Shown here piece by piece: positions 7,326 to 28,599 of a stretch of DNA of 64,000 bases (its first letter is position 1; every line of letters begins with the position of its first letter). Position numbers and translations under genes: made by a program. This DNA comes from Massilia sp. R2A-15 (lineage in GTDB: Bacteria; Pseudomonadota; Gammaproteobacteria; Burkholderiales; Burkholderiaceae_D): positions 4,154,001-4,218,000 of the forward strand of contig NZ_CP131935.1 in assembly GCF_030704305.1 (NCBI RefSeq), written 5' to 3'. Under the pieces are notes generated by a model, which was not told the origin of the DNA, made no database searches, and saw only the letters and a program-made list of their open reading frames with translations.

Positions 7326-8087
7326 ATGTCAGCCATTGTGCGCATTGACGACGAAGTCATCGGCACCGACGATTTCATCCGTACGCTCAAGCTGAGCGGA
7401 CAGTTCGAGGGACTCATCGAGCAGCTGGTGCGCGACAAGCTGACCGTGCGCGCCGCCAAGAAACAGGGCCTGCAGCTGGCGCCCGACGACGTCCAGGAGC
7501 GCGCCGATCAGTTCCGCCGCACGCTGGGTCTGCACCGCGCCGCCGACATGAACCACTACCTCGACACCCTCGGCGTGTCCCTCGACGAATTCGAAACCTT
7601 CATCACCGACGGCCTGTACCAGGAAAAGATGATGGCCGAGGTGTGCAGCGAAAAGGCCGTCGAACAATATTTCAAGCTGAACTCGCCGAAGTTCGACAGC
7701 GTCGAGGTCAGCCACATCGTGCTTGACACCGACGGCAAGGCCAAGGAGATGATGTCGGCGCTGACCGACGACCCCGACAGTTTCGCCGAGATGGCGCGCG
7801 AACATTCGATGGGCGACGCTCGCGAGCGCGGCGGCGTGATCGGCAAGGTGCTGCGCGGCTCGCTCAAGCCGGACATCGAGGCGCGCGTGTTCAACGCCGC
7901 CGTCGGCGAGCCGCTCGGCCCCTTTCCCTCGCCCGACAAGTCCTTCTACGAAATCTTCACGGTCAACGCGAAATATCCCGCCACGCTCGACGAGGACACC
8001 GCCACCGAAATCCGCCGCCTGCTGCGCGAAGGCTGGCTGGTCGCGCGCGCGCAGGAACACATCATCGAGGCCTTGCCGCCGCGATAG
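7326..8087 (+). CDS. Cytoplasmic parvulin-type peptidyl-prolyl isomerase
   Basis: A strong Shine-Dalgarno (gggggagg) precedes the ATG of this 253-residue protein. An N-terminal helical region (about 1-115, SurA/PpiC-N-like) is followed by a parvulin/PpiC domain (about 120-225) with VSHIVLDTDGKAKEM, FAEMAREHSMGDARERGGVIG and VFNAAVGEPLGPF. Parvulins isomerise X-Pro bonds and act as chaperones. There is no signal peptide, so it should work in the cytoplasm, unlike SurA or PpiD. It is the first gene of the strand that continues with the peptidase-ABC transporter, so a plausible job is keeping the double-glycine peptides or the transporter competent for export. That role is inference from position. 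Confidence 0.85.
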   Translation: MSAIVRIDDEVIGTDDFIRTLKLSGQFEGLIEQLVRDKLTVRAAKKQGLQLAPDDVQERADQFRRTLGLHRAADMNHYLDTLGVSLDEFETFITDGLYQEKMMAEVCSEKAVEQYFKLNSPKFDSVEVSHIVLDTDGKAKEMMSALTDDPDSFAEMAREHSMGDARERGGVIGKVLRGSLKPDIEARVFNAAVGEPLGPFPSPDKSFYEIFTVNAKYPATLDEDTATEIRRLLREGWLVARAQEHIIEALPPR

Positions 8088-8130
8088 GGCGAACTTCCGT
8101 CCAGCGCCAGCGTCGAACAATGTGGAATGA

Positions 8131-8232
8131 GGGGTCAGACCCTGGTGTTTCTTTTGGGGGGTCTGATCCCGGTTCGCAGTCGCCAACGCAAACCGGGGTC
8201 GGACCCCCTAACGGAAAAACCGGGGTCTGCCC
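8131..8232. repeat. Degenerate family-A palindrome cluster
   Basis: Several imperfect copies (ggggtcagaccctgg, ggggggtctgatccc, ccggggtcggacccc, ccggggtctgcccg) lie between the parvulin and the transporter gene. Confidence 0.7.
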
Positions 8233-8270: not shown

Positions 8271-11200
8271 ATGGATCCCTTACCGCAACAGCAATCGGCC
8301 GCCGATTTCCTGTCCACCGTTGAAATCCTGTCGCCGTTCACGCGCGCCGAACTCGAGCGCCTGGCCGACGCCGCCGAGTCGCGCTTCTACGCTTTCGGCG
8401 ACACCGTCTGCCAAACGGGCGAGCCGGGCGGCGGCCTATACGTGATCAAGTCCGGCTCGGTTCGCGTGTTCAGCGACGAGCACGGCAAGGAAGTGAGCAT
8501 GGGCGTGCGCAAGACCGGCGAGGTGTTCGCCGAGATCGCCATGCTGCGCGACCATCGCCACGAAGTCTCCGTGCGCGCGTCGCTGAAGTCCGAGCTGCTG
8601 TTCATCCCGCGCGCCGCGATCGAGCCGGTGCTGATGCACAATCCAGTCGCCCTCGACTTCGTCACCAACTACGTCGCCATCAGTTCCGCCGGCGGCCTGG
8701 TGGCGCGCCTGTTCGACCTGCGCGGCAAGGTCAGCAAGGAGGAGCTGGCGGACTTCGTGCGCAGCGTCGGCGTCAAGCGCGTCGGCCCCGGCAAGGAAAT
8801 CCTCAAGCAGGACTCGCGCGACGACCGCCGCCTGTACGTGGTGCGCCAGGGCCAAGTGCGCCTGGTCTACCACGATGCCGACGACGAATACAACCTGGCC
8901 ACGCTCGGCGCCGGCGAAATCTTCGGCGAGAAAGCCTGCCTGATGCGCCAGGAACAGATGGTCTCCGTCATCGCCGTCACCGACGTCACGCTGCTGGTCG
9001 TGCCCGAAAAAACCGCCCACTTCATCCTCGAGCGCAACGTCAAGCTGCGCGAGGTAATGGAAGACCGCATCCGCGGCGTCGAGCGCGAGCTGCATCGCCA
9101 GAAGCGCCTTGCCGAGCGGCGCAAGAAACCGGTCGTGCTCGACCTGCACTCGAAGGCCGAGTCCGGCGAGAAGCTGATCAAGCGCTTCGCTCTGGTCGAA
9201 CAGGCCGAGGAGATGGACTGCGGCGCCGCCTGCCTGGCGATGCTGTGCCGCCACTACGGCTTGAACATGACGCTGGGAAAACTGCGCGAACTGGCCAACG
9301 TCACCACCCAAGGCGCCACCCTCGACAGCCTCGCGCGCGCCGGCGAGACGCTCGGCTTCACCACGCGCGGCGTCCAGTGCACCTACGACGCCCTGCTCGG
9401 CTTCGACCTGCCGTTCATCGTGCACTGGGAAGGCTACCACTACATCGTGGTCTACGGCGTGTCGCCGCGCCAGGTGTGGGTGGCCGACCCGGCCGTCGGC
9501 TTCAAGAAGATGACGGTGGAGGAATTCGAAAAAGGCTGGAGCGGCACCTGCCTGGTCTTCACGCCCGGCCAGGAGATGGTGCAGCTGACCGCGGCGCGCT
9601 CGCCGTGGCTGCGCTTCGTCAGCTACCTGGCGCCCTACAAGACCATCCTGTGGCACCTGTTCCTGGCCACCTTCGTGATCCAGATGCTGGGCATCGTGCC
9701 GCCGATGATCATCCAGAACATCCTCGACAGCGTGGTGGTGCACCAGAACGTCAGCCTGCTGCACCTGCTCATCCTGGGCCTGGTCATCTCCACCGTGTTC
9801 ACCCAGGTCATGTCCACCGTGCGCTCCTACCTGGCCAACTACATGGTGCGCAACCTCGACTTCTCGATGATGTCGCAGTTTTTCAAGCACACCATGTCGC
9901 TGCCCTACTCCTTCTTCGCCAAGCGCAAGACCGGCGACATCCTCGCGCGCTTCCAGGAAAACGCGACCATCCGCGCCTTCCTCACGGAGTCCACCGTCAC
10001 CACCGTGCTGAACGTGATGATGGTGTTCATCTACTTCACTATCCTGTTCCTCTACAACGTCAAGCTGACCCTGCTGCTGATCGCCTTCGTCATCCCGATC
10101 ATGGCGGTGACCGTGCTGGCCACGCCGCGCACCAAGGACTTCGCGCGCGAGGTGTTCACCGCCTCGACCGACGCCCATTCGTTCCTGATGGAAGCGCTCG
10201 GCGGCATCGAGACCATCAAGGGCATGGGCAGCGAGCGGCCCGTGCGCCTGAAGTGGGAGAAAAAATACGTCAAGGCGCTCGAAGTGCAGTACCGCGCGCA
10301 GACGTTCAACATCCGGGTCGGTCTCGCCAGCCAGCTGCTCAATTCCGCCACCACCATCGCCATCCTGTGGGTCGGCGCCGACCTGGTGCTGTCGCGCGAA
10401 CTGTCGATCGGCCAGCTGATCGCCTTCAACGCGCTGATGGGCAGCGTGCTGGCGCCTCTGATGGGCCTGGTGGGCCTGTGGAGCCGCTTCGCCGACGCCA
10501 CCGTCGCGATGGAGCGCCTGGGCGACGTGCTCGACATCGAGCCCGAGCAGAAGCCGTCCGACCTCGCCTCGCGCGTGGTGCTGCCCGATCTGCAGGGCGA
10601 GATCAAGTTCGAGGGCATGTACTTCCGCTACGGCGAAAGCGACACCCCCTACGTGCTGGAAAACATCACCATCGACATCAAGCCAGGCGAGCTGGTCGCC
10701 ATCGTCGGGCGCAGCGGCTCGGGCAAGACCACGCTGGCCAAATTGCTGGTCGGCTTCTACCCTCCCACCGAAGGGAAGATCATCGTGGACGGCTACGACA
10801 TGAGCGTGATCGACAAAGACTACTACCGCGCCCAGGTCGGCTACGTCATGCAGAGCAACCTGCTGTTCTCCGGCACCATCGCCGAGAACATCGCCAGCGG
10901 CGACGACAGCCCGGACCGGCGCCGCATCGAGGAAGTGGCCAAGATGGCCGACGCCCACGCCTTCATCGCCAAGATGCCGCTCGGCTACGAGCAGATCGTC
11001 GGCGAGCGCGGCGTCGGCCTGTCCGGCGGCCAGGTGCAGCGCCTGTGCATCGCCCGCGCGCTGTACCACGATCCGCGCCTGCTGGTGTTCGACGAAGCCA
11101 CCTCGGCGCTCGACACCCAGTCCGAGAGCAACATCATCGCCAACATGCAGAACATCCTCGAAGGGCGGACCGCCGTGATCATCGCGCACCGGCTCAGCAC

Positions 11201-11330
11201 CATCATGCGGGCCGACAAGATCGTCGTGCTGTACGAAGGCGCCATCGTCGAGCAGGGCAAGCACGAAGAACTGATCGAGCGGCGCGGCATGTATTACGAA
11301 CTCGTCCAGAAACAATTGAGCGCGGCATGA
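8271..11330 (+). CDS. Peptidase-containing ABC exporter with two N-terminal cNMP-binding-like domains
   Basis: The 1019 residues contain, in order, two cyclic-nucleotide-binding folds (about 20-135 and 150-275), a C39 peptidase (about 300-440), a six-helix membrane domain (about 455-740) and an ABC ATPase (about 780-1019). The C39 triad is visible as Cys317 (EEMDCGAACLAML), His390 (GYHYIVVYG) and Asp406 (WVADPAVG). Walker A is GRSGSGKTT, the signature LSGGQVQRL, Walker B LLVFDEATSALD and the H-loop IIAHRLST. Such exporters cut double-glycine leaders while pumping peptides out. The first cNMP cassette (GEVFAEIAML) is closer to consensus than the second (GEIFGEKACL), which lacks the phosphate-contacting Arg, so only one may bind ligand. 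Its stop overlaps the next ATG. Confidence 0.95.
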   Translation: MDPLPQQQSAADFLSTVEILSPFTRAELERLADAAESRFYAFGDTVCQTGEPGGGLYVIKSGSVRVFSDEHGKEVSMGVRKTGEVFAEIAMLRDHRHEVSVRASLKSELLFIPRAAIEPVLMHNPVALDFVTNYVAISSAGGLVARLFDLRGKVSKEELADFVRSVGVKRVGPGKEILKQDSRDDRRLYVVRQGQVRLVYHDADDEYNLATLGAGEIFGEKACLMRQEQMVSVIAVTDVTLLVVPEKTAHFILERNVKLREVMEDRIRGVERELHRQKRLAERRKKPVVLDLHSKAESGEKLIKRFALVEQAEEMDCGAACLAMLCRHYGLNMTLGKLRELANVTTQGATLDSLARAGETLGFTTRGVQCTYDALLGFDLPFIVHWEGYHYIVVYGVSPRQVWVADPAVGFKKMTVEEFEKGWSGTCLVFTPGQEMVQLTAARSPWLRFVSYLAPYKTILWHLFLATFVIQMLGIVPPMIIQNILDSVVVHQNVSLLHLLILGLVISTVFTQVMSTVRSYLANYMVRNLDFSMMSQFFKHTMSLPYSFFAKRKTGDILARFQENATIRAFLTESTVTTVLNVMMVFIYFTILFLYNVKLTLLLIAFVIPIMAVTVLATPRTKDFAREVFTASTDAHSFLMEALGGIETIKGMGSERPVRLKWEKKYVKALEVQYRAQTFNIRVGLASQLLNSATTIAILWVGADLVLSRELSIGQLIAFNALMGSVLAPLMGLVGLWSRFADATVAMERLGDVLDIEPEQKPSDLASRVVLPDLQGEIKFEGMYFRYGESDTPYVLENITIDIKPGELVAIVGRSGSGKTTLAKLLVGFYPPTEGKIIVDGYDMSVIDKDYYRAQVGYVMQSNLLFSGTIAENIASGDDSPDRRRIEEVAKMADAHAFIAKMPLGYEQIVGERGVGLSGGQVQRLCIARALYHDPRLLVFDEATSALDTQSESNIIANMQNILEGRTAVIIAHRLSTIMRADKIVVLYEGAIVEQGKHEELIERRGMYYELVQKQLSAA

Positions 11331-12580
11331 AACTGTTCAACCAAGGCATCCCGCGCGGCTCCGCGATGTCGTATGCGGCGCTGCTGGAAAAGATCGAGAT
11401 CCTGCGTTCGACCTTGCGCTGGTCCACGTCGATGGAGCGGCCCGACATCGAAAAGCTGCTGCGCCAGGCCAACGTGCTGCGCGACGAAGTGATGCAACTG
11501 TCGCACAAGGAACGCTTCGTGCAGGCGGTCAGCGCCGAGCCTGTGCCGGACCTGGCGGCGGGCGAACGCCGGCAAGCGCTGTTGGGCCGCAGTTTCGTGT
11601 TCGAAGGCACCTTCGGCGACAACCCCAAGCTGCTCGACGCGCTCGAAGTCGCGGAGAAGGCGGCTCCGACCGAGCTGCCGGTGCTGATCGACGGCGAGAG
11701 CGGCACCGGCAAGGAGCTGATGGCCAAGGTGATCCACGCCAACGGCTCGCGCGCCGACAAGCCCTACATCTCCGTCAACTGCGGCGCGATTCCCGAAAGC
11801 CTGCTCGAATCCGAACTGTTCGGCCACAAGAAAGGCGCGTTCACGGGCGCGGCGACCGACCGCAAGGGCAAGTTCGAAAGCGCGCACCACGGCACGATTT
11901 TTCTCGACGAAATCGGCGAACTTCCGCTGCCCGGACAGGTCAAGCTGCTGCGGGTGCTGCAGTCGCACGAGATCCAGCGCGTGGGGTCGGACGAAACCAC
12001 GCTGGTCGATACGCGCATCGTGGCGGCGACCAACAAGAACCTGCGCAAGCTGATCGAGGAAGGACTGTTCCGCGAAGACTTGTTCTATCGCCTCAGCGTG
12101 ATCCAGCTGACCTTGCCGCCGCTGCGCGAACGCCGCGACGAGATACCGCTCTTGATTTCCTGGTACGCGGACGAATCGGCGGAAGAGCTCAAGCGCCGGC
12201 CGGTGAAGATGACGGCCAAGCTGCGCGATTTCCTGCTGAACTATTCATACCCCGGCAACATCCGCGAGCTGCGCAACCTGCTGTACCGGATCTCGTGCCT
12301 GGCGGGCGAGACGGCCGACCTGGCGCATCTGCCGGAAGACATCCGGCCCGCGGCGCCGGCTGCGCGCGGCAAGGCGGCGCCGGCGGCGGCGATGTCGATG
12401 AGCGACGCGAAGCGGGTGGCCAGCGACGAAGCCGAGCGCGCGTATCTCGAACGTGGTCTGCAGGAAGTGGGCGGCACGGTGGCCGAGCTGGCGCGGCGCT
12501 GGGACATGAACCGCTCGCATTTGCAGATCCTGCTGAAAAAGCACGGCCTGCACTCGAAGGATTTCCGCAAAGACGCCTGA
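11327..12580 (+). CDS. Sigma-54-dependent transcriptional activator (AAA+ enhancer-binding protein)
   Basis: The start codon overlaps the transporter stop (ATGA), giving 417 residues; the longer upstream frame is a shadow of the transporter gene. A short N-terminal region (about 1-95) lacks a response-regulator receiver domain. The central AAA+ domain has Walker A GESGTGKE (about 123-130), an intact sigma-54 contact loop GAFTGA (about 171-176) and Walker B GTIFLDEIGE. The C-terminus is a Fis-type helix-turn-helix (ELARRWDMNRSHLQILLKKHG). Activators of this type remodel sigma-54 polymerase at -24/-12 promoters. Three such promoters precede the peptide operons of the same locus, which are the obvious targets. 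The input signal is not evident. Confidence 0.93.
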   Translation: MKLFNQGIPRGSAMSYAALLEKIEILRSTLRWSTSMERPDIEKLLRQANVLRDEVMQLSHKERFVQAVSAEPVPDLAAGERRQALLGRSFVFEGTFGDNPKLLDALEVAEKAAPTELPVLIDGESGTGKELMAKVIHANGSRADKPYISVNCGAIPESLLESELFGHKKGAFTGAATDRKGKFESAHHGTIFLDEIGELPLPGQVKLLRVLQSHEIQRVGSDETTLVDTRIVAATNKNLRKLIEEGLFREDLFYRLSVIQLTLPPLRERRDEIPLLISWYADESAEELKRRPVKMTAKLRDFLLNYSYPGNIRELRNLLYRISCLAGETADLAHLPEDIRPAAPAARGKAAPAAAMSMSDAKRVASDEAERAYLERGLQEVGGTVAELARRWDMNRSHLQILLKKHGLHSKDFRKDA

Positions 12581-12596
12581 GTTGGCGTAAAGACCG

Positions 12597-13006
12597 TCGT
12601 TCCTTCGCAGGCAGGAACCCATGCTGAGCGTGCGGCCAGCGCTAACCAACACGCGTCAGGGGTATGACGGGGGCGCCGAGCACCGCGGGTTCAGACCCAA
12701 GTTCAGCAAACTATGATCTGTCGTTCCTGCGCGGGCAGGAACCCATGCTGAGCGCGACGGGCCGAATCAAATGGCGCGTCAGGGGTATGACGGGGCGCCG
12801 AGCACCGCGGGGTCAGACCCAAGTTCAGAAAACTATGATCTGTCGTTCCTGCGAAGGCAGGAACCCATGCTGAGCGTGCGGCCAGCGCTAACCAACACGC
12901 GTCAGGGGTATGACGGGGGCGCCGAGCACCGCGGGGTCAGACCCAAGTTCAGCAAACGATGATCAGTCGTTCCTGCGCAGGCAGGAACCCATGCTGAGCG
13001 TGCGGT
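12597..13006. repeat. Tandem array, about 122-124 bp unit, 3 full copies plus part of a fourth
   Basis: Copies start at 12597, 12721, 12843 and 12967. Each begins with half a family-B palindrome (tcgttcctgcgcaggcagg), then the phrase cccatgctgagcg, a variable block, and a family-A-like fragment (ccgcggggtcagaccc). The array fills most of the non-coding stretch between the activator gene and the convergent phosphatase gene. I see no gene in 12581-13106. Confidence 0.9.
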
Positions 13007-13106: not shown

Positions 13107-13865
13107 TCAAAGTGCCGGATTAATCATCGTCTTGTCGCTCGACGCATCATCCGCGCGCACCACCACCACCGAGATGTTATCGCGCCCGCCGTTGGCCAGC
13201 GCCTGCGCCACCAACTCGTCCACCGCGCGGCGGCAGTCGCCCGCCGCCAGCATCTCGGCGATCGCCTGATCCTCCACCGGATTGCTCAGCCCGTCGCTGC
13301 ACAACAAGAACAAATCGCCATCGCGCACCTGCAGCGTGCCGACCTCGTAATCGATCGTATCGGCCGCCCCGAGCGCCCGCGTAATCTGATTCGGCATCGC
13401 CGGCGGCGCATCGAGCCCCGGCGGATGCGCCCGGTACTCCTCCGCCTGGCTATGATCGCGCGTCAACTGCCGCAGCCGGCCATTGCGGTACAGATAAATG
13501 CGGCTATCGCCCGCCCACACGTACGCCGCTTCGGACCCGCTGGCGAGCAGCACCACCACAGTGCTGCCCATCATCGCCACCTTGCGCAGCACCGCTTCAT
13601 CGCGCAGCCGGCGGTTCACCGCGCGCAGCTGATCGCCGGCCGCGGCGGCGAACCGGTCGATATCGCCAGGATCGGCAAGCGCCTGCAGCGCCTCGACCAC
13701 CATGCCGCTGGCGACGTCGCCATACGCGTGCCCGCCCATCCCGTCTGCCACCGCCCACACGCCGCGCTCGCCCATTTCCAGCAGCGCGTCCTCATTGCGG
13801 CTGCGCACCAGCCCGATGTCCGTGCGCGCCGCCGACGTCCAGCGCAATTGTGCCTGGGCGGTCAT
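13107..13865 (-). CDS. PP2C-family protein Ser/Thr phosphatase
   Basis: This 252-residue protein shows the PPM/PP2C metal-site motifs RSRNEDALLE, VADGMGGHAYGD, SRIYLYRNG (in WAGDSRIYLY), LLCSDGLS and GRDNISVVVV. Such enzymes remove phosphate from Ser/Thr with two Mn/Mg ions. There is no membrane segment. Its ATG overlaps the stop of the preceding double-glycine peptide gene by 4 bp, so it is translated as the last gene of a peptide operon with a sigma-54 element at its head. The natural substrate is the locus kinase and its FHA-bound targets; that pairing parallels PppA with PpkA and is inferred. Confidence 0.95.
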   Translation of the reverse strand: MTAQAQLRWTSAARTDIGLVRSRNEDALLEMGERGVWAVADGMGGHAYGDVASGMVVEALQALADPGDIDRFAAAAGDQLRAVNRRLRDEAVLRKVAMMGSTVVVLLASGSEAAYVWAGDSRIYLYRNGRLRQLTRDHSQAEEYRAHPPGLDAPPAMPNQITRALGAADTIDYEVGTLQVRDGDLFLLCSDGLSNPVEDQAIAEMLAAGDCRRAVDELVAQALANGGRDNISVVVVRADDASSDKTMINPAL

Positions 13866-14140
13866 TGCAGCCGATTGTTCACGCTGCCTTCATCGACCGT
13901 GACCGCGATGTTCGAATTCGGCCCGGAGTTGTTCACGTTGACCATCTGATACTGATTGATCATCTGGTCCGCGTAGTTATTGGTCTGGTAGAAGTTGATC
14001 ACTTGCGGCTGCGACCGCAGAGTGGACGGAACCGCCATCCAGCCATAAATCCAGTTCGCCGCCCCGCCCCGCACCTGCGCCAGCGCCTTTCGGTCCAGCT
14101 CGCGATTGACGGAAAGGTCTGTGATCGTAATGGTAGCCAT
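13862..14140 (-). CDS. Double-glycine leader peptide, class 3 (92 aa)
   Basis: The leader begins MATITITDLSVNRELD and ends ALAQVRGG at residues 25-26, matching the double-glycine leaders of its neighbours (hydrophobic-acidic DL...ELDR...GG). The predicted 66-residue core starts AANWIYGWM, is rich in Asn and Gln (TNNYADQMINQYQMVN), and has no Cys. A good ribosome site (gaggag) precedes the ATG. The core does not align with the other two peptide classes except in composition. The stop overlaps the phosphatase start. Likely exported and processed by the C39 transporter of the locus. Confidence 0.88.
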   Translation of the reverse strand: MATITITDLSVNRELDRKALAQVRGGAANWIYGWMAVPSTLRSQPQVINFYQTNNYADQMINQYQMVNVNNSGPNSNIAVTVDEGSVNNRLQ

Positions 14141-14194
14141 GATTGCGTCTCCTCGACACGTCGGAAAAGAGAGGCCTGTGCAGGCCTCCCTAGT

Positions 14195-14461
14195 TTAGAA
14201 CATCTTTGGAATGACCGCGTTGTTGAATCCAGTCTGCGCGACCGCCAGGTCAACGTGCGGCCCGCTGAAGCCGGCGCCGATCGTGCCATTGTTATTGAGC
14301 ACGTTGACGTCGACGTCCTGCACCTGGATGAGAGTCTGGTTCACGTTCAGGTTCATGTTGACGTCGGAACCCCAGGCCATGTGGCCGCCGTGCACCGCCG
14401 ACATCGCACGCGCGTCGAGGTCTGTGCTGCACGACAGGTCGTTGAGGGAAATGGAGGACAT
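14195..14461 (-). CDS. Double-glycine leader peptide, class 2 (88 aa, VHGG variant)
   Basis: The leader MSSISLNDLSCSTDLDARAM ends SAVHGG, with His at the position where the other leaders have Arg. The core has alternating polar/aliphatic runs (VNMNLNVNQ, VDVNVLNNNGTIGAGF) that match the two near-identical class-2 peptides at 15382 and 16373. There is no Cys in the core. A ribosome site (ggggag) precedes the ATG, and the gene follows the class-1 peptide by 15 bp, so the two are co-transcribed. Confidence 0.88.
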   Translation of the reverse strand: MSSISLNDLSCSTDLDARAMSAVHGGHMAWGSDVNMNLNVNQTLIQVQDVDVNVLNNNGTIGAGFSGPHVDLAVAQTGFNNAVIPKMF

Positions 14462-14476
14462 GTCCGTTCTCCCCGC

Positions 14477-14752
14477 TTAGTACTGCACGATGTTGTTCTG
14501 GCCGAACTGCTCGGTCGTGTTGACCGCGCTGACGTCGCTGACGAAGGCCGAGCCGTCGGCGGTGCCGTTGAACACGCTCTGTCCCTGCATCAGGTTCTGG
14601 ATGCCGTGGATCGACGAGTCGTAGCTTGGCGTGTACGAGATGTTGCCGACCGAGTACACCGGTGCGGCCATGTGACCGCCGCGAACTGCCGACATTGCGG
14701 CGCGGTCGAGTTGTTCGGTGCGGGCCAGGTCTTTGATGGTCAGTGCTTTCAT
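14477..14752 (-). CDS. Double-glycine leader peptide, class 1 (91 aa)
   Basis: The start was placed at 14752 because aggag stands 7 bp upstream and the paralogues begin identically (MKALTIKDLARTE); the frame is open further upstream into the promoter. The leader ends SAVRGG. The core shares the class-1 pattern Y-x-VG-N/D, Y-x-P-x-YDSSI, QN..Q.Q, DGSAFV and the C-terminal QFGQNNIV. No Cys is present. It is first in the operon with 14195, 13862 and the phosphatase, 63 bp behind a sigma-54 element. Confidence 0.9.
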   Translation of the reverse strand: MKALTIKDLARTEQLDRAAMSAVRGGHMAAPVYSVGNISYTPSYDSSIHGIQNLMQGQSVFNGTADGSAFVSDVSAVNTTEQFGQNNIVQY

Positions 14753-14814
14753 GATGATTCTCCTAGAGTAGTGGTTGGTTGGTTGAGGCATTTCGATGCG
14801 CTCGATCTCTATAT

Positions 14815-14830
14815 AGCGAAAGCCGTGCCA
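14815..14830 (-). promoter_or_regulatory. Sigma-54 (-24/-12) promoter of the peptide-phosphatase operon
   Basis: On the minus strand the site reads TGGCACG-N4-TCGCT, close to the RpoN consensus TGGCACG-N4-TTGCW with GG and GC at the required spacing. It lies 63 bp before the start of the first peptide gene. The same element recurs at two other peptide operons. Confidence 0.8.
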
Positions 14831-14847
14831 GCACCCCGACCAAGGCG

Positions 14848-14860
14848 TAAGTCATTGAAT
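14848..14860 (-). promoter_or_regulatory. IHF-like site upstream of sigma-54 promoter
   Basis: The minus-strand sequence ATTCAATGACTTA matches 12 of 13 positions of the IHF consensus WATCAANNNNTTR. It is 18 bp upstream of the -24 element, and the same block occurs at the other two sigma-54 sites. IHF commonly bends DNA between enhancer and sigma-54 promoter. Confidence 0.45.
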
Positions 14861-14912
14861 TCATTAGTTTTTGCGAGTTCCTTAACTGACCAGGAAGATG
14901 GTTCTGACCAAA

Positions 14913-14947
14913 CAGTTCGCGGCGTCTCGTTCGGCGCCGCCCAACAT
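14913..14947 (-). promoter_or_regulatory. Candidate enhancer (activator-binding) block
   Basis: A block with cagtt-N10-cgttcggcgcc and cccaaca is conserved at 16151-16185 at exactly the same distance (83 bp) from the -24 element, with a weaker version near 17492. Position and conservation fit an upstream activator site. No protein binding is demonstrated by sequence alone. Confidence 0.35.
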
Positions 14948-15034: not shown

Positions 15035-15054
15035 CTTCTCGTGACAAACACAAA

Positions 15055-21084: not shown

Positions 21085-21235
21085 GAGCCGCTCCCGGTAA
21101 TCGCTGCGCGCAAGACGAATCGGCCTTGCGGATTTACTTCGACTGTGCCAGATTTAGCCATGCGGAGTCGCACGATGTCGTGAACATTTTGTCCAGCAAT
21201 TGTTCTTGCCCGCGTCGCGGGGAAAGGTGCCGATC

Positions 21236-21661
21236 ATGCGCAACACATTGCTTTCCGCCGCACTGCTGGCGATGCTCTTGCAGCTGCCCGCCGCCCAGTC
21301 GGCGCGCACGGCGGCGCCCGAAAACGCCCAGGTCTACTTTATCTGGCCGTCCGACGGCACGGTCATCCCGAACGGCAAATTCTGGGTGCGCATGGGCCTG
21401 CGCAACATGGGCGTGGCGCCAAAAGGCAGCGACGTCGCCAAGACCGGGCACCACCATTTGATCATCGACTCCGAGCTGCCGGCGATGGACGAGCCGATCC
21501 CCAACGACCGCAACCACCTGCACTTCGGCGCTGGCGAGACCGAGGCGCGGGTCGAACTGCCGCCCGGCAAGCACACCCTGCAGCTGCTGCTCGGCGACGC
21601 CAATCACGTGCCGCACGATCCCCCGGTGCAATCGAAAAAAATAACCGTCATCGTGAAGTGA
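21236..21661 (+). CDS. DUF4399-type periplasmic protein, copy 1
   Basis: The ATG at 21236 with gggaaagg upstream gives 141 residues with a signal peptide (about 1-24, LLSAALLAMLLQLPAAQSA). The mature part shows YFIWPSDGTVIP, GVAPKG, TGHHHLIID, PNDRNHLHFGAGETE, LPPGKHTLQLLLGD and VPHDPPVQSKKITV, the pattern of the DUF4399 family, whose function is unknown to me. The HHH and H-x-HFG motifs suggest a metal or ligand site. A paralogue follows 258 bp downstream, and the gene diverges from the FGE-fold gene. Confidence 0.85.
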   Translation: MRNTLLSAALLAMLLQLPAAQSARTAAPENAQVYFIWPSDGTVIPNGKFWVRMGLRNMGVAPKGSDVAKTGHHHLIIDSELPAMDEPIPNDRNHLHFGAGETEARVELPPGKHTLQLLLGDANHVPHDPPVQSKKITVIVK

Positions 21662-21859: not shown

Positions 21860-21899
21860 GGGGTCTGGTCCCGCGGAGCGACGGGGATGCCGAGTCCCC
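21860..21899. repeat. Family-A palindrome, long variant
   Basis: A ggggtctggtcccgcgg arm runs into the second hairpin form cggggatgccgagtcccc, 20 bp before the second DUF4399 gene. Confidence 0.8.
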
Positions 21900-21919
21900 A
21901 TTTTGGATGGAGCCATGCC

Positions 21920-22345
21920 ATGCGCAAATCCCTCGCCGCCGCAGCTGTGCTTGCCTGTCTGTGGAGCGCCGCGCCCATCGCCGCCAACTCCCCGGCGCCG
22001 GCCAACGCCTACTGCTACATCGGCTGGCCCAACGACGGCCAGGTGATCGCCGCGGGCAAGCCCTTCCGCGTCTGGTTCGGCCTGCGCTACATGGGCGTGG
22101 CGCCAAAAGGCGTCGCGTTCAAGAACACCGGCCACCACCACCTGCTGATCGACACCGACCTGCCGCCGCTGGACCAGCCCATCCCCAACGACCGCAACCA
22201 CCTGCACTTCGGCGCGGGCGAAACGGAAACCACCATCGAACTCGCGCCGGGCAAGCACACCCTGCAACTGCTGATGGGCGACGAAAACCACATCCCCCAC
22301 AATCCGCCCGTCAAGTCGAAGAAAATCACCATCACCGTCAGATGA
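21920..22345 (+). CDS. DUF4399-type periplasmic protein, copy 2
   Basis: The ATG at 21920 gives 141 residues with a signal peptide (about 1-23). It is a clear paralogue of the upstream gene: GWPNDGQVIAAGKPF, GVAPKG, TGHHHLLID, PNDRNHLHFGAGETE, APGKHTLQLLMGDENHIPHN. The downstream FHA-HD-GYP gene starts 1 bp after its stop, so it leads the operon 21920-28599. A periplasmic chaperone-like or ligand-binding role in the secretion machine is possible but only suggested by linkage. Confidence 0.85.
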   Translation: MRKSLAAAAVLACLWSAAPIAANSPAPANAYCYIGWPNDGQVIAAGKPFRVWFGLRYMGVAPKGVAFKNTGHHHLLIDTDLPPLDQPIPNDRNHLHFGAGETETTIELAPGKHTLQLLMGDENHIPHNPPVKSKKITITVR

Positions 22346-22346: not shown

Positions 22347-24290
22347 ATGGAAACATCGCCTTCCTTCCCCGCACCGGGCGGCGCCGTCTCCGCCTACCTC
22401 GAGCTGACTGGCGCCGGCAGCGCCAAGCCCGCGGTGCTGCCGCTGCACGACGAAGCGGTGATCGGGCGCGACCCGCAGGACGCGCTCGCCTCCGACAAGT
22501 TCATCTGCGTGCCCGAGCACACCATCAGCCGCCGCCACGCCCGCATCCGCCGCCGCGGCGCCAACTACTTCATCGAAGACCTGCACTCGCGCAACGGCAC
22601 CTTCGTGCTCGGCCAGCGCCTCGCGCCCGGCGCCTGGCACCCGCTGCACGACGGCGACGAACTGTCGCTGTCCTCGGCGCAAATGGTGTTCCACTCGCTG
22701 GTCATCCCGCCGCGCGAAAGCATGCCCACCATCATCACCAAGGCCGTGGACGCCACCCAGTACGCCCAGCCGACCATGCGGCCGGCCGCCGCGCCCAGCG
22801 ACCTCGAAAAATCCGTCAAGCGCCTGCACGCAATGGCCCAGGTCAGCATCGCGCTCGGCGCCGTGACCGACCGCGCCACGCTCACCGAGCGCATCATGAA
22901 TTTTATTTTCGACCTGTTCCCGCTGGCCGAGCGCGCCTTCATCCTGCTCAGGGTCAACGAGCGCGACGCCCCGGTGCCGGTGGCCGCGCGCCGCCGCGAC
23001 GGCGCCATCCAGGACCCGGCCACCGTGCGCATCTCGCACACCATCGTCGACGAAGTGCTGCACAGGAAGCACGCCATCCTCTCCACCGACACGCTGTCCA
23101 ACCGCCACTTCTCGGCGCAGGAATCGATCGTCGCGCAAGCCATCCTCAGCGTCATGTGCGTGCCCCTGATCATCGGCGACGAAGTGATCGGCCTGATCCA
23201 GGTTGACACCTCCTCCGACCCCTTCGCGTTCACCGAGGCCGACCTTGAAATCCTGAGCGGCGTGTGCGCCGAGACCGCCGTCGCCCTGAAAAACTTCCAG
23301 CTCTACGCCGACATCAAGGGCCTGCTGGACGGCTTCGTCAGCGCCTCGGTGCAGGCGATCGAAGAACGCGACCCCGTCACGGCCGGCCACTCCTTCCGCG
23401 TCGCCGAATATTCCGACCGGCTGGCCGAGGCCATCGGCCGCGCCGACGACCCCGACCTGCGCCGCATCGCCTTCACCAGGGAACAGCTGCGCGAAATCCA
23501 CTACGCCGCGCTGCTGCACGACTTTGGCAAGGTCGGCGTGCGCGAGCACGTCCTGCGCAAGGAAAAGAAACTGCACCACGCCGACATGCGCCTGCTGGAG
23601 CAGCGCTTCCGCTACGCCCGCTCCTGCATCGAGCGCCAGGCCTACCGCGAGCTGGCCGAAACGCACCTGCGTGAACGCCTCGATGACGCCGAATTCCGCC
23701 GCCGCAAGGAAAACATCGACGCCGAGCTGCGCATCGAAAGCGCCCGCCTCGACGCCTTCCTCGAATCGATCCGGCAGGCCAACGAGCCCGCCATCTCCGA
23801 GGGCGGCAAGCGCTTCGAGCTCGACCCGATCCGCCGCTACGCCTGCCGCCATCCGGAAGGCGACGTGTTCCACCTGCTCGACGACGACGAACTGGCCGCG
23901 CTCAACATCGCGCGCGGCTGCCTGACGCCCGACGAACGGCGCCAGATCGAAGCCCACGTGGTCGATTCCTACTCCTTCCTCATTTTGATCCCGTGGACGC
24001 GCGAACTGGCCGGCGTGCCCGCGATCGCCCACGGCCACCACGAAAAGCTCGACGGCTCCGGCTACCCGATGGGCCTGAAGGGCGGGCAGATCAGCATCCA
24101 GACCCGCATCCTCACCATCAGCGACATCTACGACGCCCTCACCGCGCGCGACCGCCCCTACAAGCAGGCGGTGCCGGCCGAAGCGGCGCTTGCGCTGATG
24201 GACGCCGAATGCGCCGCCGGCCACCTCGACCCGCGCCTATTCAAGGTGTTCGTCGAATCACGCGGATGGGCCACATCATGCGCCGCCTGA
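22347..24290 (+). CDS. FHA-GAF-HD-GYP protein (predicted cyclic-di-GMP phosphodiesterase with phosphothreonine reader)
   Basis: The 647 residues contain an N-terminal FHA domain (about 20-120: VIGRDP, SRRHARI, LHSRNGTF), a GAF domain (about 155-325: VPLIIGDEVIGLIQVDT) and a C-terminal HD-GYP domain with a helical insertion (about 330-640). The HD-GYP residues are intact: HSFRVAEYSDRLA, LLHDFGKVGV, HGHHEKLDGSGYP and SDIYDALTARDRPYK. FHA domains bind phosphothreonine and HD-GYP enzymes hydrolyse cyclic di-GMP. The protein could therefore couple kinase output to second-messenger level. No membrane segment is seen. It overlaps the next gene. Confidence 0.93.
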   Translation: METSPSFPAPGGAVSAYLELTGAGSAKPAVLPLHDEAVIGRDPQDALASDKFICVPEHTISRRHARIRRRGANYFIEDLHSRNGTFVLGQRLAPGAWHPLHDGDELSLSSAQMVFHSLVIPPRESMPTIITKAVDATQYAQPTMRPAAAPSDLEKSVKRLHAMAQVSIALGAVTDRATLTERIMNFIFDLFPLAERAFILLRVNERDAPVPVAARRRDGAIQDPATVRISHTIVDEVLHRKHAILSTDTLSNRHFSAQESIVAQAILSVMCVPLIIGDEVIGLIQVDTSSDPFAFTEADLEILSGVCAETAVALKNFQLYADIKGLLDGFVSASVQAIEERDPVTAGHSFRVAEYSDRLAEAIGRADDPDLRRIAFTREQLREIHYAALLHDFGKVGVREHVLRKEKKLHHADMRLLEQRFRYARSCIERQAYRELAETHLRERLDDAEFRRRKENIDAELRIESARLDAFLESIRQANEPAISEGGKRFELDPIRRYACRHPEGDVFHLLDDDELAALNIARGCLTPDERRQIEAHVVDSYSFLILIPWTRELAGVPAIAHGHHEKLDGSGYPMGLKGGQISIQTRILTISDIYDALTARDRPYKQAVPAEAALALMDAECAAGHLDPRLFKVFVESRGWATSCAA

Positions 24291-25681
24291 ACCATCTCTT
24301 CGCCCTGCTCGCCGCCATGCTGCTGTGGGGCTGCGCCGACGTCAGCCAGAAGCCCTACCAGCAGCCGTCGGTGCCGGAAAAAGCCGGCTGGTCGCAAACT
24401 TCCGGCCGCCCCGCCTCCCCCGGCGACACCATCCAGATCGACTGGTGGAAGCAGTTCAAGGACCCCTACCTGGACGGCCTGGTCGACAAGGCCGTCAACG
24501 GCAACTTCGACCTCAAGGTGCTGGCCGCGCGCATCGGCGTGGCGGGCGCCGAGATCGGCGAAGCGCGCGCCGGCGCCCTTCCCACGCTCGACGCCGGCGC
24601 CGGCGCCAGCTTCGAAAAAAGCACCGGCCAGAACTTCCGCAAGCAATTCAATCTCGGCACCCAGGTCAACTGGGACATCGACATCTGGGGCAAGGTCGAA
24701 AAAGGCGTGAAAGCCCAGACCGCCGAATACAAGGCGACCGAAGCCGAGTGGCGCGCCGGCTACCTCAAGCTCGCGGCCGACGTCGCCACCACCTACTTCC
24801 AGATCCTGCAATTCGACGAACAGATCGACCAGCAGCAAAAATCGCTCGCCAAGAGCCAGCAGATCCTCGCCACCTACCAGGCGATGCAGCAAAACGGCCT
24901 GGTGCCGCAGACGCGCGTGCTGCAGCAGGGCGCGGAGGTCAACGGCCTGACCAACGCCCTGATCGAACTGCGCCGCCTGCGCGCCATCGCCGGCAACGCG
25001 CTCTCCACCCTGGTCGCCGTGCCGGCCGGCGACTTCACGGTACCCAAGGGCAACCTGCAGCAGCGCGTGCAACTGCCGACCGTGCCCGAAGGCCTGCCGT
25101 CCCAGCTGCTCAAGCGTCGGCCCGACGTCGTCGCCGCGGAATTTCGCGTGCTGGTCGCCTACGAGCTGGTCGGCCAGGCCAAGCTGGCGCAACTGCCCTC
25201 GATCGGCCTGACCGGGCGCGGCGGCACCGCCAGCTTCGCGCTGAGCAGCCTGCTCAAGTCCTTCACCTTCGGCCTGCTCCCCAGCATCAACTTCCCGATC
25301 TTCGACCCCAGCGTCAAGGCGAAAATCAAGACCAGCGAAGCGCGCACCCAGGTCGCCGAGCAGCAATACCGCGCCACCGTCATGGCCGCCTTCGAAGAAG
25401 TGGAGAACGCGCTGGTCAACCTCGACGCGCACCGCAAGCAGCGCGAGCAGCTGCAGCAGCAGACCGACCAGCTGCGCACCGTGGCCGTGCAGATCGACGC
25501 CCAACTCAAGGAAGGGCTGGTGTCTCAGCTGGAAGTATTCGAAACCGAGCGCTCGCTGCTGTCGGCCGAACTGGCGCTGCTGGCCAACCACCAGCAGATC
25601 CTGTCCGACACGGTGACTTTGTACAAGGCGCTGGGCGGCGGCTGGGCGCCGGTGGATGTGCGGCATGCGTCCCGCGAATGA
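24278..25681 (+). CDS. TolC/NodT-type outer-membrane efflux lipoprotein
   Basis: The ATG at 24278 overlaps the HD-GYP gene by 13 bp (24266 is an alternative); 467 residues. The lipobox LLWGC gives a lipidated Cys near residue 19. Two outer-membrane efflux repeats follow, with the family features IDWWKQFKDPYLDGLV, VNWDIDIWGKVEKG, LLKRRPDVVAAE and INFPIFDP. Such trimers form the outer-membrane duct of type I systems and RND pumps. Together with the HlyD-type adaptor in the same operon and the C39-ABC transporter it completes a tripartite exporter. Confidence 0.93.
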   Translation: MRRLNHLFALLAAMLLWGCADVSQKPYQQPSVPEKAGWSQTSGRPASPGDTIQIDWWKQFKDPYLDGLVDKAVNGNFDLKVLAARIGVAGAEIGEARAGALPTLDAGAGASFEKSTGQNFRKQFNLGTQVNWDIDIWGKVEKGVKAQTAEYKATEAEWRAGYLKLAADVATTYFQILQFDEQIDQQQKSLAKSQQILATYQAMQQNGLVPQTRVLQQGAEVNGLTNALIELRRLRAIAGNALSTLVAVPAGDFTVPKGNLQQRVQLPTVPEGLPSQLLKRRPDVVAAEFRVLVAYELVGQAKLAQLPSIGLTGRGGTASFALSSLLKSFTFGLLPSINFPIFDPSVKAKIKTSEARTQVAEQQYRATVMAAFEEVENALVNLDAHRKQREQLQQQTDQLRTVAVQIDAQLKEGLVSQLEVFETERSLLSAELALLANHQQILSDTVTLYKALGGGWAPVDVRHASRE

Positions 25682-27248
25682 ACCGGACGGCGGGCACGCC
25701 GTGGCCGAAGCGCGCGCACCGGCGGGCCAGCAGCGCATGATCGTGCTGCAGCCGCTCAACCCGCCGGGACTGGCCGACATCCGCATCGACGGCAGCCTGT
25801 TCGCGGTCGGCCGCACCGAAGCGCCGTTCGCCTCCTACCCGGCCGACGTCGTGGCCGACCTGTCGCGCCGCCACGCCCGCATCTTCTGCGAAGGCGGCGC
25901 CGTCTACCTGGCCGACCTCGACAGCAAGAACGGCACCACGGTCAACGGCGCCGCGCTGAAGCAGACCATCACCCGGCTGGGCAACGGCGACGAAATCGGT
26001 TTCGGCCGCGCCCTGTCGTACCGGCTCAAGCTGGTGGAAGGCGGGCCGGCGCCGCCGCCCACGGCCACCCTGGCCAGCCTGACGCTCACGCCCGAATCGC
26101 CGGACTCTGGCCTGCAGCCGATCGTCGTCACCGAATTCCCCTTCCTGATCAGCAAGGCCGACGACACCTTCGCGCGCTACCAGGCCAGCGCGCCGGCGCA
26201 AGTGAACTACCTGTCGCGCCGCCACGCCCACATCTTTCTCAAGCACGGCCGGCCCTTCATCGAAGACCTCGGCAGCACCAACGGCACCTTCGTGGACGGC
26301 ACGCGGCTCGAAGAGCACGCTGTCGCGCTAACGGAGGGCAGCACCGTCGGCTTCGGCGGCCACCACTTCGTCTACCGGCTCAGCGCGCAATGGGACGACC
26401 CGACCGTCGATCCCACCGTCACCCGCTTCGGGGCCGCGGCCGCCGCGCCCGCCATCGACACCGACAAGACCACCTTCGTGGCGGCGGCCGACTCCTTCCT
26501 CGACATCTTCTGCGTCGACCCGCCGCACGAGGAGCCGCGCGCCGAAGCGGCCGAAGTGCCCGCCGCCGAAGCCGCCCGTGCCCGGCCGCAAGGCAGGACC
26601 GCCGCCTTCATCGCCGAACTGAGGGCGGCCATCGGCGGCGAGGACGTGAGCAAGAAGCCCGCCATTCGTCTAGGCCTGATGGCGCTGGCCGCCCTGGTCG
26701 TGGTCACGCTGGCGCTGTACCTGGCCGGCGCGCCGGAGCGCGACGCGCAGGATCTGCTCGCCAGCGGCAACTACGCCAAGGCGGCAGCCGTCGCCACCGA
26801 CGGCCTGGCGCGCGATCCGGACAACCTCACGTTGCGCAACCTCGCCACCCAGGCTCAGCTCAAGGCTAACGTCCCGCGCTGGTCCGCGCTGCTCAAGGCG
26901 CGCCAGTTCACCGCCGCCACATCCGTGGTCGCAACGATGCGGCAAAACGCGCGGCAGAATCCCGAGCTGATGCCGCTGGTGGACGAACTTGCCTGGATCG
27001 GCGACATCGAAAAATTCGTCGCCGCACGCGGCGGCGCCGAGGCCGCATCCAGCAGCCCAGCCGACGCCGCCAGGATCAAACAGATCCTCAAGCAATGGGA
27101 AGACGAGACCGAACTGCACCAGCGCGCCTTCTCCACAATCAGCTCGTACGTGCCCGAGTTTCGCGACACCTACGCGGTTGCGCTAAGCCACGTGCGCAAA
27201 CTTGCCCTGTCGGGCGGAGGACCGGCCCATGAGCAGCAATCCCCTTAA
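25665..27248 (+). CDS. Double-FHA membrane protein
   Basis: It starts inside the end of the preceding gene (ATG 25665 or 25656); about 527 residues. Two FHA domains (about 25-120 and 140-235) show GRTEAPF, SRRHARIFCEG, SKNGTTVNG and then SRRHAHIFLKHG, STNGTFVDG. A linker precedes one membrane helix (about 335-355, LGLMALAALVVVTLALYLAG), and a helical C-terminal part with TPR-like character (ASGNYAKAAAVATDGLARDPDN) lies beyond it, probably in the periplasm. FHA domains would read phosphothreonine made by the locus kinase and carry that signal to the HlyD adaptor or transporter. The next gene overlaps it by 20 bp. Confidence 0.88.
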   Translation: MRPANEPDGGHAVAEARAPAGQQRMIVLQPLNPPGLADIRIDGSLFAVGRTEAPFASYPADVVADLSRRHARIFCEGGAVYLADLDSKNGTTVNGAALKQTITRLGNGDEIGFGRALSYRLKLVEGGPAPPPTATLASLTLTPESPDSGLQPIVVTEFPFLISKADDTFARYQASAPAQVNYLSRRHAHIFLKHGRPFIEDLGSTNGTFVDGTRLEEHAVALTEGSTVGFGGHHFVYRLSAQWDDPTVDPTVTRFGAAAAAPAIDTDKTTFVAAADSFLDIFCVDPPHEEPRAEAAEVPAAEAARARPQGRTAAFIAELRAAIGGEDVSKKPAIRLGLMALAALVVVTLALYLAGAPERDAQDLLASGNYAKAAAVATDGLARDPDNLTLRNLATQAQLKANVPRWSALLKARQFTAATSVVATMRQNARQNPELMPLVDELAWIGDIEKFVAARGGAEAASSSPADAARIKQILKQWEDETELHQRAFSTISSYVPEFRDTYAVALSHVRKLALSGGGPAHEQQSP

Positions 27249-28599
27249 GCCCCTGACCGAAGCGCTGGAGGACCACAGCGCCGAAGGCATCTCGATTCTG
27301 ACCGCCGAACCGTGGCGCTTCACGCGCGCGGTGGTCTACACCATGGTCGGGCTGGTGCTGGCCGGGCTGGCCTGGTCCTTCTTCGGCCACGCCGACGTGA
27401 TGGTCACGGCGCCCGGCACGCTGGTGCCCGCATCCGAGGTGCGGCGGCTGTATGCGCCGATCGACGGCGAGCTGTCCAGCATCTACATCGCCGAAGGTCA
27501 GCCCGTGCTCAAGGGCGACGTGGTGGCGCGGATCTACGCGCGCGGCGCGATCGAAGCGGCCAAGAACGCCCTCGAAGCGCGGCTCAAGCTGGAAGACGCC
27601 GAACGCGAATGGAAAGAATTCCCCGAAAAGAAAGCGCTGATGGAGCGCCGCGCCGCCGCGCTCAAGGAAGCGACCGCCGTCGAAGAAAAGCAGCACGAAC
27701 GGCGCCTGGCCGAAGGCACCAGCAAGGTCACCGCGGGCCAGCAAGCGCAAGTCCAGGAAGCGCGCACCAACATGGACGACGCCAGGCGCGCGCGCGATGC
27801 CGCCAAGGACGAGGCCGACAAATACACGCGCCTGTTCGCCATGGCCGGCGGCGGCGGCGTGTCGCAGTTGCAGGTCGAACAAAAGAAAAACGCCCTGCTG
27901 GCCGCGGAGAACGCCATGCGCGTCGCGCAGGCCCGCTTCAGCGAACTGAACGCGCGGCAAAGCCTCGAGTTCACCCAAGCCAAGTCGCAGCTCGAGACCA
28001 GCGGGCAGGAACTGACCAAGCTGCGACTGCAATCCGAATCGGCGGACCGCGAGGTGGCCAACGCCGAGGACAAGCTCAAGCTGCAAGTGCAGACGGCGCG
28101 GCTGGTGGCGGATGCTGCGGCGCGCATCAAGTTCGAAAACATCGACAAGGACAACTTCCTGCTGATCGTCGCGCCGGTGGACGGCGTGATCACGGACGTG
28201 ACGTCGACGCAGCCCGGCGACAAGATCCAGGCCAACTCGCCGCTGGGCGGCATCGCGCCGAAGGATGCGAAGCCGATCCTGAAGATCGAGATCGCCGAGA
28301 ACGACCGCGGCTTCCTGCGCGAGGGACTGCCGGTGCAGATCAAGTTCAACGCGTTTCCGTACCAGCGTTACGGGCTGATCAAGGGCACGCTGCAATTCAT
28401 CTCGCCGGCGACCAAGGTGTCGGCGGTGACCAAACAGCCCGTGTACGAGGGTCGAATCGCGCTAGAAGCGGATCACTATCGCGTTGGCAATACTTCATAC
28501 CCGCTGCGATATGGGATGGCGGCGGTGGCAGAGATCGTGGTACGCGAACGGAGGATGATTGATCTGGCCTTGGACCCGTTCAGGCAAATCGGCGGTTGA
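27229..28599 (+). CDS. HlyD-type membrane-fusion (adaptor) protein of the type I exporter
   Basis: The ATG at 27229 with ggcggagg upstream gives 456 residues. A single N-terminal membrane helix (about 38-55, VVYTMVGLVLAGLAWSFFG) is followed by a lipoyl half-motif (APIDGELSSIYIAEGQPVLKG), a long coiled coil (about 110-300) and the second lipoyl/beta-barrel part (IVAPVDGVITDV, RYGLIKGTLQFISP, YPLRYGMAAVAEIVV). Such adaptors link the inner-membrane ABC exporter to the outer-membrane channel. It ends the operon and the accessory locus; only a palindrome separates it from the convergent helicase gene. Confidence 0.93.
   Translation: MSSNPLKPLTEALEDHSAEGISILTAEPWRFTRAVVYTMVGLVLAGLAWSFFGHADVMVTAPGTLVPASEVRRLYAPIDGELSSIYIAEGQPVLKGDVVARIYARGAIEAAKNALEARLKLEDAEREWKEFPEKKALMERRAAALKEATAVEEKQHERRLAEGTSKVTAGQQAQVQEARTNMDDARRARDAAKDEADKYTRLFAMAGGGGVSQLQVEQKKNALLAAENAMRVAQARFSELNARQSLEFTQAKSQLETSGQELTKLRLQSESADREVANAEDKLKLQVQTARLVADAAARIKFENIDKDNFLLIVAPVDGVITDVTSTQPGDKIQANSPLGGIAPKDAKPILKIEIAENDRGFLREGLPVQIKFNAFPYQRYGLIKGTLQFISPATKVSAVTKQPVYEGRIALEADHYRVGNTSYPLRYGMAAVAEIVVRERRMIDLALDPFRQIGG

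Follow-up and report, generated by a model that had tools for sequence, protein, structure and literature searches.

Genes of the locus

We analyzed a stretch of 64,000 nucleotides from Massilia sp. R2A-15 (NZ_CP131935.1, positions 4,154,001 to 4,218,000 of the forward strand), hereafter the window, whose interval 7326-28599 carries a putative type I secretion locus for small peptides with double-glycine (GG) leaders. This interval contains nine peptide genes and 12 larger genes; the larger ones, with their assignments by scans against Pfam and NCBIfam, are the following (coordinates here and below are those of the window).

7326-8087, plus strand: parvulin-type peptidyl-prolyl isomerase (Pfam Rotamase, 1.2e-10), no signal peptide by eye
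8271-11330, plus strand: exporter with two cNMP domains, a C39 peptidase, an ABC membrane domain and an ATPase (Pfam)
11327-12580, plus strand: sigma-54 activator with a GAFTGA motif (Pfam Sigma54_activat, 3.7e-70)
13107-13865, minus strand: PP2C phosphatase, directly behind the class C peptide gene (Pfam)
17622-19706, plus strand: Ser/Thr kinase (Pfam Pkinase, 2.2e-40), its C-terminal part DUF4384-like but under the Pfam cut-off
19948-21084, minus strand: FGE-fold protein (Pfam FGE-sulfatase, 5.4e-55) with a hydrophobic N-terminal segment by eye
21200-21661, plus strand: DUF4399 protein a (Pfam)
21887-22345, plus strand: DUF4399 protein b (Pfam)
22347-24290, plus strand: FHA-GAF-HD-GYP protein (Pfam), HHExxDGxGYP present
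24278-25681, plus strand: NodT-type outer-membrane channel (NCBIfam TIGR01845 outer_NodT, 300 bits against a cut-off of 210; Pfam OEP, 3e-52)
25656-27248, plus strand: protein containing two FHA domains (Pfam FHA at 1e-28 in two stretches), a segment that is hydrophobic by eye and a weak TPR-like part
27202-28599, plus strand: HlyD periplasmic adaptor (Pfam; TIGR01843 at 5.7e-48, below its cut-off)

A preliminary description of this DNA had listed a complete tripartite exporter, nine GG peptides, a parvulin, a sigma-54 activator, a Ser/Thr kinase, a PP2C phosphatase, two FHA proteins and an FGE-fold protein, and the family scans confirm all of these parts, with an outer-membrane factor of the NodT type; the two DUF4399 proteins, which belong to the set, were missing from that list, and the sigma-54 motifs and the likely co-transcription of phosphatase and peptides described below likewise go beyond it. 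The exporter is predicted to be a peptidase-containing ABC transporter (PCAT), given that its C39 domain, whose Cys317, His390 and Asp406 are invariant in 12 aligned homologues, is fused to ABC membrane and ATPase domains and that GG-leader substrates are encoded alongside. Characteristic motifs are likewise found in the kinase, PP2C, HD-GYP, C39 and ABC domains, and GAFTGA is found in the activator, in which Pfam detects no receiver domain.

Co-occurrence of the parts in other genomes

A species-level genome scan with a 12-sequence exporter alignment yielded at least 260 confirmed relatives, 80 of whose loci were analyzed, with carriers that include Duganella, Massilia, Noviherbaspirillum, Paucimonas, Paraburkholderia, Caballeronia, Cupriavidus and Aromatoleum. 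Within these loci and their 10-kb flanks the remaining parts were sought by tblastn at a cut-off of 60 bits, raised to 100 for the kinase, 150 for the outer channel and the double-FHA protein and 300 for the HD-GYP protein. The activator was present in all 80 loci, the parvulin in 79 and the PP2C phosphatase in 73; HlyD and each of the two DUF4399 proteins followed with 58, the FGE-fold protein, the double-FHA protein and the outer channel with 57, the kinase with 14 (two of these matches, in L091 and L099, being short pieces at the end of the locus) and the HD-GYP protein with eight. Eight parts occur together in 49 of the 80 loci, and parvulin, exporter and activator are collinear neighbors in 79, the contig of the eightieth (L061) beginning inside the exporter gene. 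Contig ends or the 10-kb limit of the flanks account for many of the absences, which were counted without separating such cases. In longer pieces of other genomes the second half of the locus lies farther along the same contig (G002 and G033) or on a separate contig (G026 and G034). In G189 and G284 a single run comprises kinase, FGE-fold protein, two DUF4399 proteins, outer channel, double-FHA protein, HlyD, parvulin, exporter, activator and PP2C, without an HD-GYP protein.

The kinase was also searched for in 15 of the 80 exporter genomes, hand-chosen for spread, and an orthologue was found in every one of them at E values of 1.4e-156 or better; other kinase matches in these genomes are either pieces of the C-terminal part, mostly adjoining the kinase match (in G383 such a piece sits on another contig), or no better than 6e-42. 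In Noviherbaspirillum denitrificans (G382, L042) the kinase protein is split between two places on one contig, its kinase portion adjoining the genes for the outer channel and the double-FHA protein and its C-terminal portion lying elsewhere.

Among 349 genomes from the order, the exporter (E 1e-200) and the double-FHA protein (E 1e-30) occur in the same three. A full-length exporter is likewise found in five of 60 close relatives, all 60 of which have some ABC match, and strong matches to the double-FHA protein (E 3.9e-87 or better) are found in the same five plus G024, an assembly that is 86% complete and in 430 contigs; at E 0.001, 22 of the 60 match this protein, mostly through short FHA stretches. 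Since the exporter and the double-FHA protein share their phyletic distribution, the system is patchy across genomes but travels as a set. This conserved co-occurrence led us to reject accidental co-location of the parts, and the earlier claim of a self-contained locus, for which co-occurrence in other genera was the proposed check, has withstood that check.

The double-glycine peptides

All nine GG peptides are encoded on the minus strand, in the interval 13862-17293; their leaders are 26 residues long and end in GG, and every gene has a sequence resembling a ribosome-binding site. They fall into four classes, which here and in the other loci were assigned by regular expressions of our own making.

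13862-14140, minus strand: class C
14195-14461, minus strand: class B
14477-14752, minus strand: class A
15055-15246, minus strand: class D, with a short, Arg-rich core
15382-15639, minus strand: class B
15703-15987, minus strand: class A
16373-16630, minus strand: class B, near-identical to 15382-15639
16695-16973, minus strand: class A
17015-17293, minus strand: class A

An A-B peptide pair is tandemly duplicated over about 1 kb (15382-16975), with stretches that are 92-96% identical, so duplication seems to be the way in which the array expands.

A leader profile, built from these same loci, finds peptides with a GG leader in 81 of the 88 sequences searched (the window and 87 loci, some of them pieces of one genome), matches below 12 bits or without a GG, GA, GS or AG ending being excluded; with this profile no GG peptide was detected in L038, L090 and L104, which are short, or in L114, a flank piece. 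The 284 matches comprise 162 of class A (in 75 sequences), 29 of class B (in 18), 72 of class C and 21 of class D (in 21 sequences, one each, including a 14-residue fragment in L108 that looks like class C). Class A reaches up to eight copies per locus, and class C is present in exactly one copy in each of its 72 sequences. In four Cupriavidus loci (L089, L095, L105 and L108) the class C leader ends in GA rather than GG, and in L055 and L052 (Aromatoleum anaerobium and a metagenome-assembled genome) the cores assigned to class A by rule are apparently further types.

The cores of classes A to C have median lengths of 59-69 residues and are rich in amides: Asn makes up 12.1% of class A, 15.4% of class B and 14.5% of class C cores, against 0.9% in class D and 2.9% in gene calls of more than 250 residues. 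A single residue is kept in at least 90% of the unique cores (149 A, 27 B and 63 C) at 30 alignment columns, 16 of which are Gln or Asn, as compared with the 19-24% that these two residues together contribute to the cores. In smaller, hand-trimmed alignments without near-identical sequences (53 of 60 class A cores, where 106 non-redundant ones existed, 36 of 38 class C and 23 of 23 class B) as many as 11 of 15 invariant columns are Gln or Asn; we prefer the weaker figure of 16 in 30. The three classes look like one diverged family, because profile comparison with hhalign relates A to C and A to B (E 3e-5, probability 73%) and, for each of the three profile pairs, the real score was above those of all 40 column shuffles. 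The cores had no convincing match to a Pfam family or a PDB chain (best PDB sequence match, E 0.015), one class B peptide matching Pfam DUF6160 at 0.0021, below the cut-off. A database search with the class C profile returned 766 relatives, and the named ones among the 120 listed are hypothetical or uncharacterized proteins.

Peptides with a GG leader, together with a C39 exporter and HlyD, make up the classical set for microcins and bacteriocins, the arrays contain multiple copies with varying cores, and the cyanobacterial relatives were originally named bacteriocins in the relevant text of PMC3140520; the peptides could accordingly be toxins of the class II bacteriocin or microcin type, with immunity provided by an unrecognized small protein or by self-insensitivity. 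We nevertheless think this unlikely, for the cores are rich in Asn and Gln, and class C, conserved across genera at 48% mean column identity (36 aligned cores) and present once in 72 of 72 sequences, does not resemble a diversifying toxin. Moreover, no immunity-like gene was recognized among the larger open reading frames of the interval, which are the ones that the family scans covered.

It is quite improbable, in our judgment, that the peptides are precursors of ribosomally synthesized and post-translationally modified peptides (RiPPs), altered before or during export by some enzyme such as the FGE-fold protein. The FGE-fold gene does adjoin the kinase gene in 13 of the 15 loci of the kinase sample and its product has PvdO as best NCBIfam model, below the cut-off, and the kinase itself matches the LanL and LanKC models, again below the cut-off and through the shared kinase domain; however, the FGE-fold protein looks secreted or periplasmic, and type I export bypasses the periplasm, the cores of classes A to D are nearly without Cys (0.4% or less), and no lanthionine cyclase, radical-SAM or YcaO domain was found among the locus proteins scanned.

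Promoter motifs and predicted operons

Three perfect matches to the sigma-54 type promoter motif TGGCACG-N4-TYGC lie in the window, where 0.28 would be expected, and all three precede class A genes on the correct strand.

14816-14830, minus strand: sigma-54 type motif TGGCACGGCTTTCGC, 63 bp before the class A start at 14752
16054-16068, minus strand: sigma-54 type motif TGGCACGCCTTTCGC, 66 bp before the class A start at 15987
17362-17376, minus strand: sigma-54 type motif TGGCACGCATCTCGC, 68 bp before the class A start at 17293

When one mismatch is allowed the window holds four matches against 7.7 expected, and because these stay below expectation only the perfect sites stand out. Across the loci, 226 of 232 peptide matches were kept (those with a poor ribosome-binding score or less than 120 bp of upstream DNA being dropped), and a site with at least nine of 11 matches occurs within 200 bp upstream of 122 of these 226 genes, as opposed to 1.75% of Markov-resampled controls. 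Seen from the side of the motif, 87 of 114 strong sites (10-11 of 11 matches) sit 20-120 bp before a peptide start, the expectation by area being 0.8%, and the same holds for 144 of 529 sites with at least nine matches. We therefore rejected the notion that the motif is mere background, since the strong sites in the loci concentrate before peptides despite the lack of genome-wide enrichment. By class, 89 of the 159 class A genes and 52 of the 72 class C genes have the motif, at a distance of 41-97 bp upstream, compared with none of 29 class B genes and one of 21 class D genes, a distribution that fits A and C as the first genes of operons.

Sequence features expected of a sigma-54 regulon, namely an activator with GAFTGA, RpoN (encoded by one rpoN gene in the genome) and -24/-12 sites, are thus found together, and the activator of the locus probably switches on the peptide genes, because sigma-54 motifs precede such large shares of classes A and C. 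With YYGC as its second half the motif has 30 sites in the whole genome, four of which precede GG-leader peptides: the three in the locus and one outside the window. This last peptide (L156, G000:C1:4233702-4233900), an orphan about 15.7 kb beyond the window end with a different core that lacks Asn and a weak protein match (E 0.26), lies 70 bp behind the motif TGGCACGGTCCCTGC and is likely to be a tenth member of the regulon, away from the locus.

Two terminator-like hairpins lie behind class B genes.

15270-15320, minus strand: terminator-like hairpin (RNA fold -36.3 kcal/mol, z -7.5)
16300-16356, minus strand: terminator-like hairpin (RNA fold -39.7 kcal/mol, z -9.4)

Judging from the spacing, three operons are likely: the site at 17376 would drive A, A and B and end at a strong hairpin; the site at 16068 would drive A and B, followed by a hairpin and perhaps D; and the site at 14830 would drive A, B, C and the PP2C gene. 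In all 71 loci examined (the window, which is alike, not being counted) the class C gene closely precedes PP2C in the same orientation, the distance to the start of the PP2C alignment being below 30 nt in 36 of the 71 and extending up to about 200 nt. Given this constant order, the production of cargo and of phosphatase is probably tied. The 4-nt overlap of class C stop and PP2C start that is seen in the window was rejected as a general rule, overlaps of 4 or 1 nt occurring in six of the 71.

Proposed function and relation to known systems

With moderate confidence, we read the locus as a conserved, regulated betaproteobacterial type I secretion system for small Asn/Gln-rich peptides whose cores assemble as extracellular matrix, as in the EbfG/PteB system. 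Sequence would indicate, as a first step, that RpoN and the activator of the locus transcribe the peptide operons from the -24/-12 promoters, one operon probably also carrying the PP2C phosphatase. What is known of the families, whose motifs are intact, suggests a second step in which the C39 domain would cleave the precursors behind GG and the ABC-HlyD-NodT conduit would export the cores, while the parvulin may help to keep or present the substrates. In a third, the kinase and the PP2C phosphatase might act on phosphothreonines read by the FHA proteins and so constitute a phospho-Thr switch gating either the exporter or the activator; nucleotide signals could be added by the cNMP domains, as in HetC, and by HD-GYP in the loci that have it. 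We infer this phospho-regulation solely from the kinase, PP2C and FHA domains. Finally, the exported A, B and C cores would assemble outside the cell into a matrix or fibre, with class C, one per locus, as the fixed partner and A and B as multi-copy subunits. This matrix assembly, argued from analogy, is the step of which we are least sure.

More tentatively, and as a possibility that we ourselves regard as somewhat doubtful, the cores could represent a new family of fibre-forming, functional amyloid-like peptides that are exported by a type I route, made under RpoN and gated by kinase, phosphatase and FHA proteins, with the phosphatase co-made with the cargo as an off-switch. Such a type I system would contrast with curli, Fap and TasA, which are other export routes of functional amyloids.

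Several observations weigh against the matrix reading or against parts of it. Neither Pfam nor PDB returned a curli or other amyloid match for the cores, and in a search at E 1 the curlin repeat was absent from the 53 cores of class A, 23 of class B and 36 of class C that were covered. The AlphaFold2 models, made for a class B and a class C peptide, reach a mean pLDDT (predicted local distance difference test) of about 54 and contain no strand, the class B model having a low-confidence helix, and in a test of at most 60 unique cores per class a beta-type hydrophobic alternation is clear in class B only (mean z 1.87), being weak in A (0.61) and in C (0.80, with 1.03 for the helix type). The relation between the B and C profiles is weak when taken alone (hhalign E 4e-4, probability 34%), and the leader profile yielded no GG peptide in the full-length loci L034, L037 and L091. 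As for regulation, nearly half of the class A genes lack the motif, which is not enriched genome-wide (the 30 sites comparing with 62 for the reversed pattern), and the HD-GYP protein, found in eight of 80 loci, is no constant component and has been dropped as a core part. The loci are, moreover, related to each other, so that the counts are non-independent events, and the Fisher tests on the parts of the 80 loci treat as independent genomes that are not.

The closest precedents for the exporter are cyanobacterial. In the text of Wang et al. 2011 (PMC3140520), C39 exporter clusters of the "long type" (groups I, II and VI) comprise an exporter with CAP_ED, C39 and ABC domains, HlyD, a SurA/rotamase protein and GG precursors. 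Judged by this domain make-up alone, the Massilia locus shares with them a C39 ABC exporter with an N-terminal nucleotide-binding domain, HlyD, a rotamase and GG peptides, but differs from the clusters as there described in its two cNMP domains, its NodT channel, its sigma-54 activator with the promoter motifs, its kinase, PP2C and FHA proteins, its FGE-fold protein, its DUF4399 proteins and its peptide cores; the word "kinase" is absent from the main text of that paper. The claim that the combination is undescribed hence stands only in part: the exporter core is already known from cyanobacteria as far as PMC3140520 describes it, whereas for the regulatory layer and the peptides, which combine sigma-54 control, kinase, PP2C and FHA proteins and this peptide family in one betaproteobacterial set, no description was found in the literature by title and abstract, a search that left subscription journals largely outside. 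The secretion-related passages of PMC5979394 contain nothing relevant. The cyanobacterial arrangement appears in a Nostoc plasmid record, where four GG peptides in tandem accompany the exporter, HlyD and PpiC; exporters of Skermanella and Leptolyngbya align over 96% of the length at 31-36% identity, and the Skermanella neighborhood shows HlyD, but no kinase, PP2C, FHA protein or activator in a gene table that is incomplete.

The comparison with EbfG and PteB rests on shared traits, namely several small GG proteins, an exporter with a C39 peptidase and a mature size of 6-7 kDa. According to passages of PMC4997328 and PMC9981879, EbfG1-4 of Synechococcus elongatus are GG proteins whose export involves PteB and which have a part in biofilm formation, a reporter system yielded amyloid signals for EbfG1-3, and mature EbfG is said to have no homology to proteins of other cyanobacteria. 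Biofilm role and amyloid formation were thus examined experimentally for the EbfG proteins, in the terms of these passages, while for the Massilia locus the evidence is from sequence.

HetC of Nostoc shares a cNMP domain, C39 and ABC with the exporter of the locus, and differs, to go by the relevant passages of PMC10986499, in having one cNMP domain, no nearby adaptor gene and a role in cell differentiation. Its cNMP domain is described there as required for function and as binding ppGpp in vitro, and by analogy the cNMP domains of the Massilia exporter may sense a nucleotide. The same passages propose HetC, a cNMP-C39 exporter, as the exporter of a signaling peptide, which is in line with an explanation whereby the peptides are pheromones addressed to the producer population and sensed by the C-terminal domain of the kinase, the FGE-fold protein or the DUF4399 proteins. 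Although candidate sensors and a kinase do belong to the conserved set, up to eight class A copies and median cores of 59-69 residues would be unusual for signals, and for class D, which is short, a receptor was not recognized; we consider the pheromone explanation improbable.

As to the proposed phospho-Thr switch, the locus resembles a type VI secretion system (T6SS) in that a kinase, a PP2C phosphatase and FHA proteins are encoded with a secretion machine. In the T6SS these are PpkA, PppA and Fha, which form a threonine phosphorylation pathway. The machine here, by contrast, is a type I exporter, and no T6SS families were found among the scanned proteins of the interval.

If the matrix reading is true, soil- and plant-associated Betaproteobacteria would possess a secretion system with its own cargo, promoters and signaling circuit, which would connect an exported peptide matrix with sigma-54 and with Ser/Thr phosphorylation; it would also suggest that some of the "bacteriocin-like" GG peptides of Gram-negative bacteria are structural.

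A few further features of the window may be recorded. The next gene downstream of the locus (28679-31888, minus strand) encodes a large defence-like protein with PLD, DEAD/ResIII helicase and DUF3427 domains and has no evident link to the locus, and outside it, at 44988-46325, lies a gene for a GGDEF protein with PAS and RsbRD-like domains. Between the activator and PP2C genes (12596-13000) there are three overlapping copies of a 159-nt stretch, spaced 122-124 bp apart, which by eye resemble dispersed repeats of the REP (repetitive extragenic palindromic) type. At the other end, the open reading frame list shows, by eye, the end of dnaA, dnaN and gyrB at 18-4418, placing the locus near genes of the replication origin.

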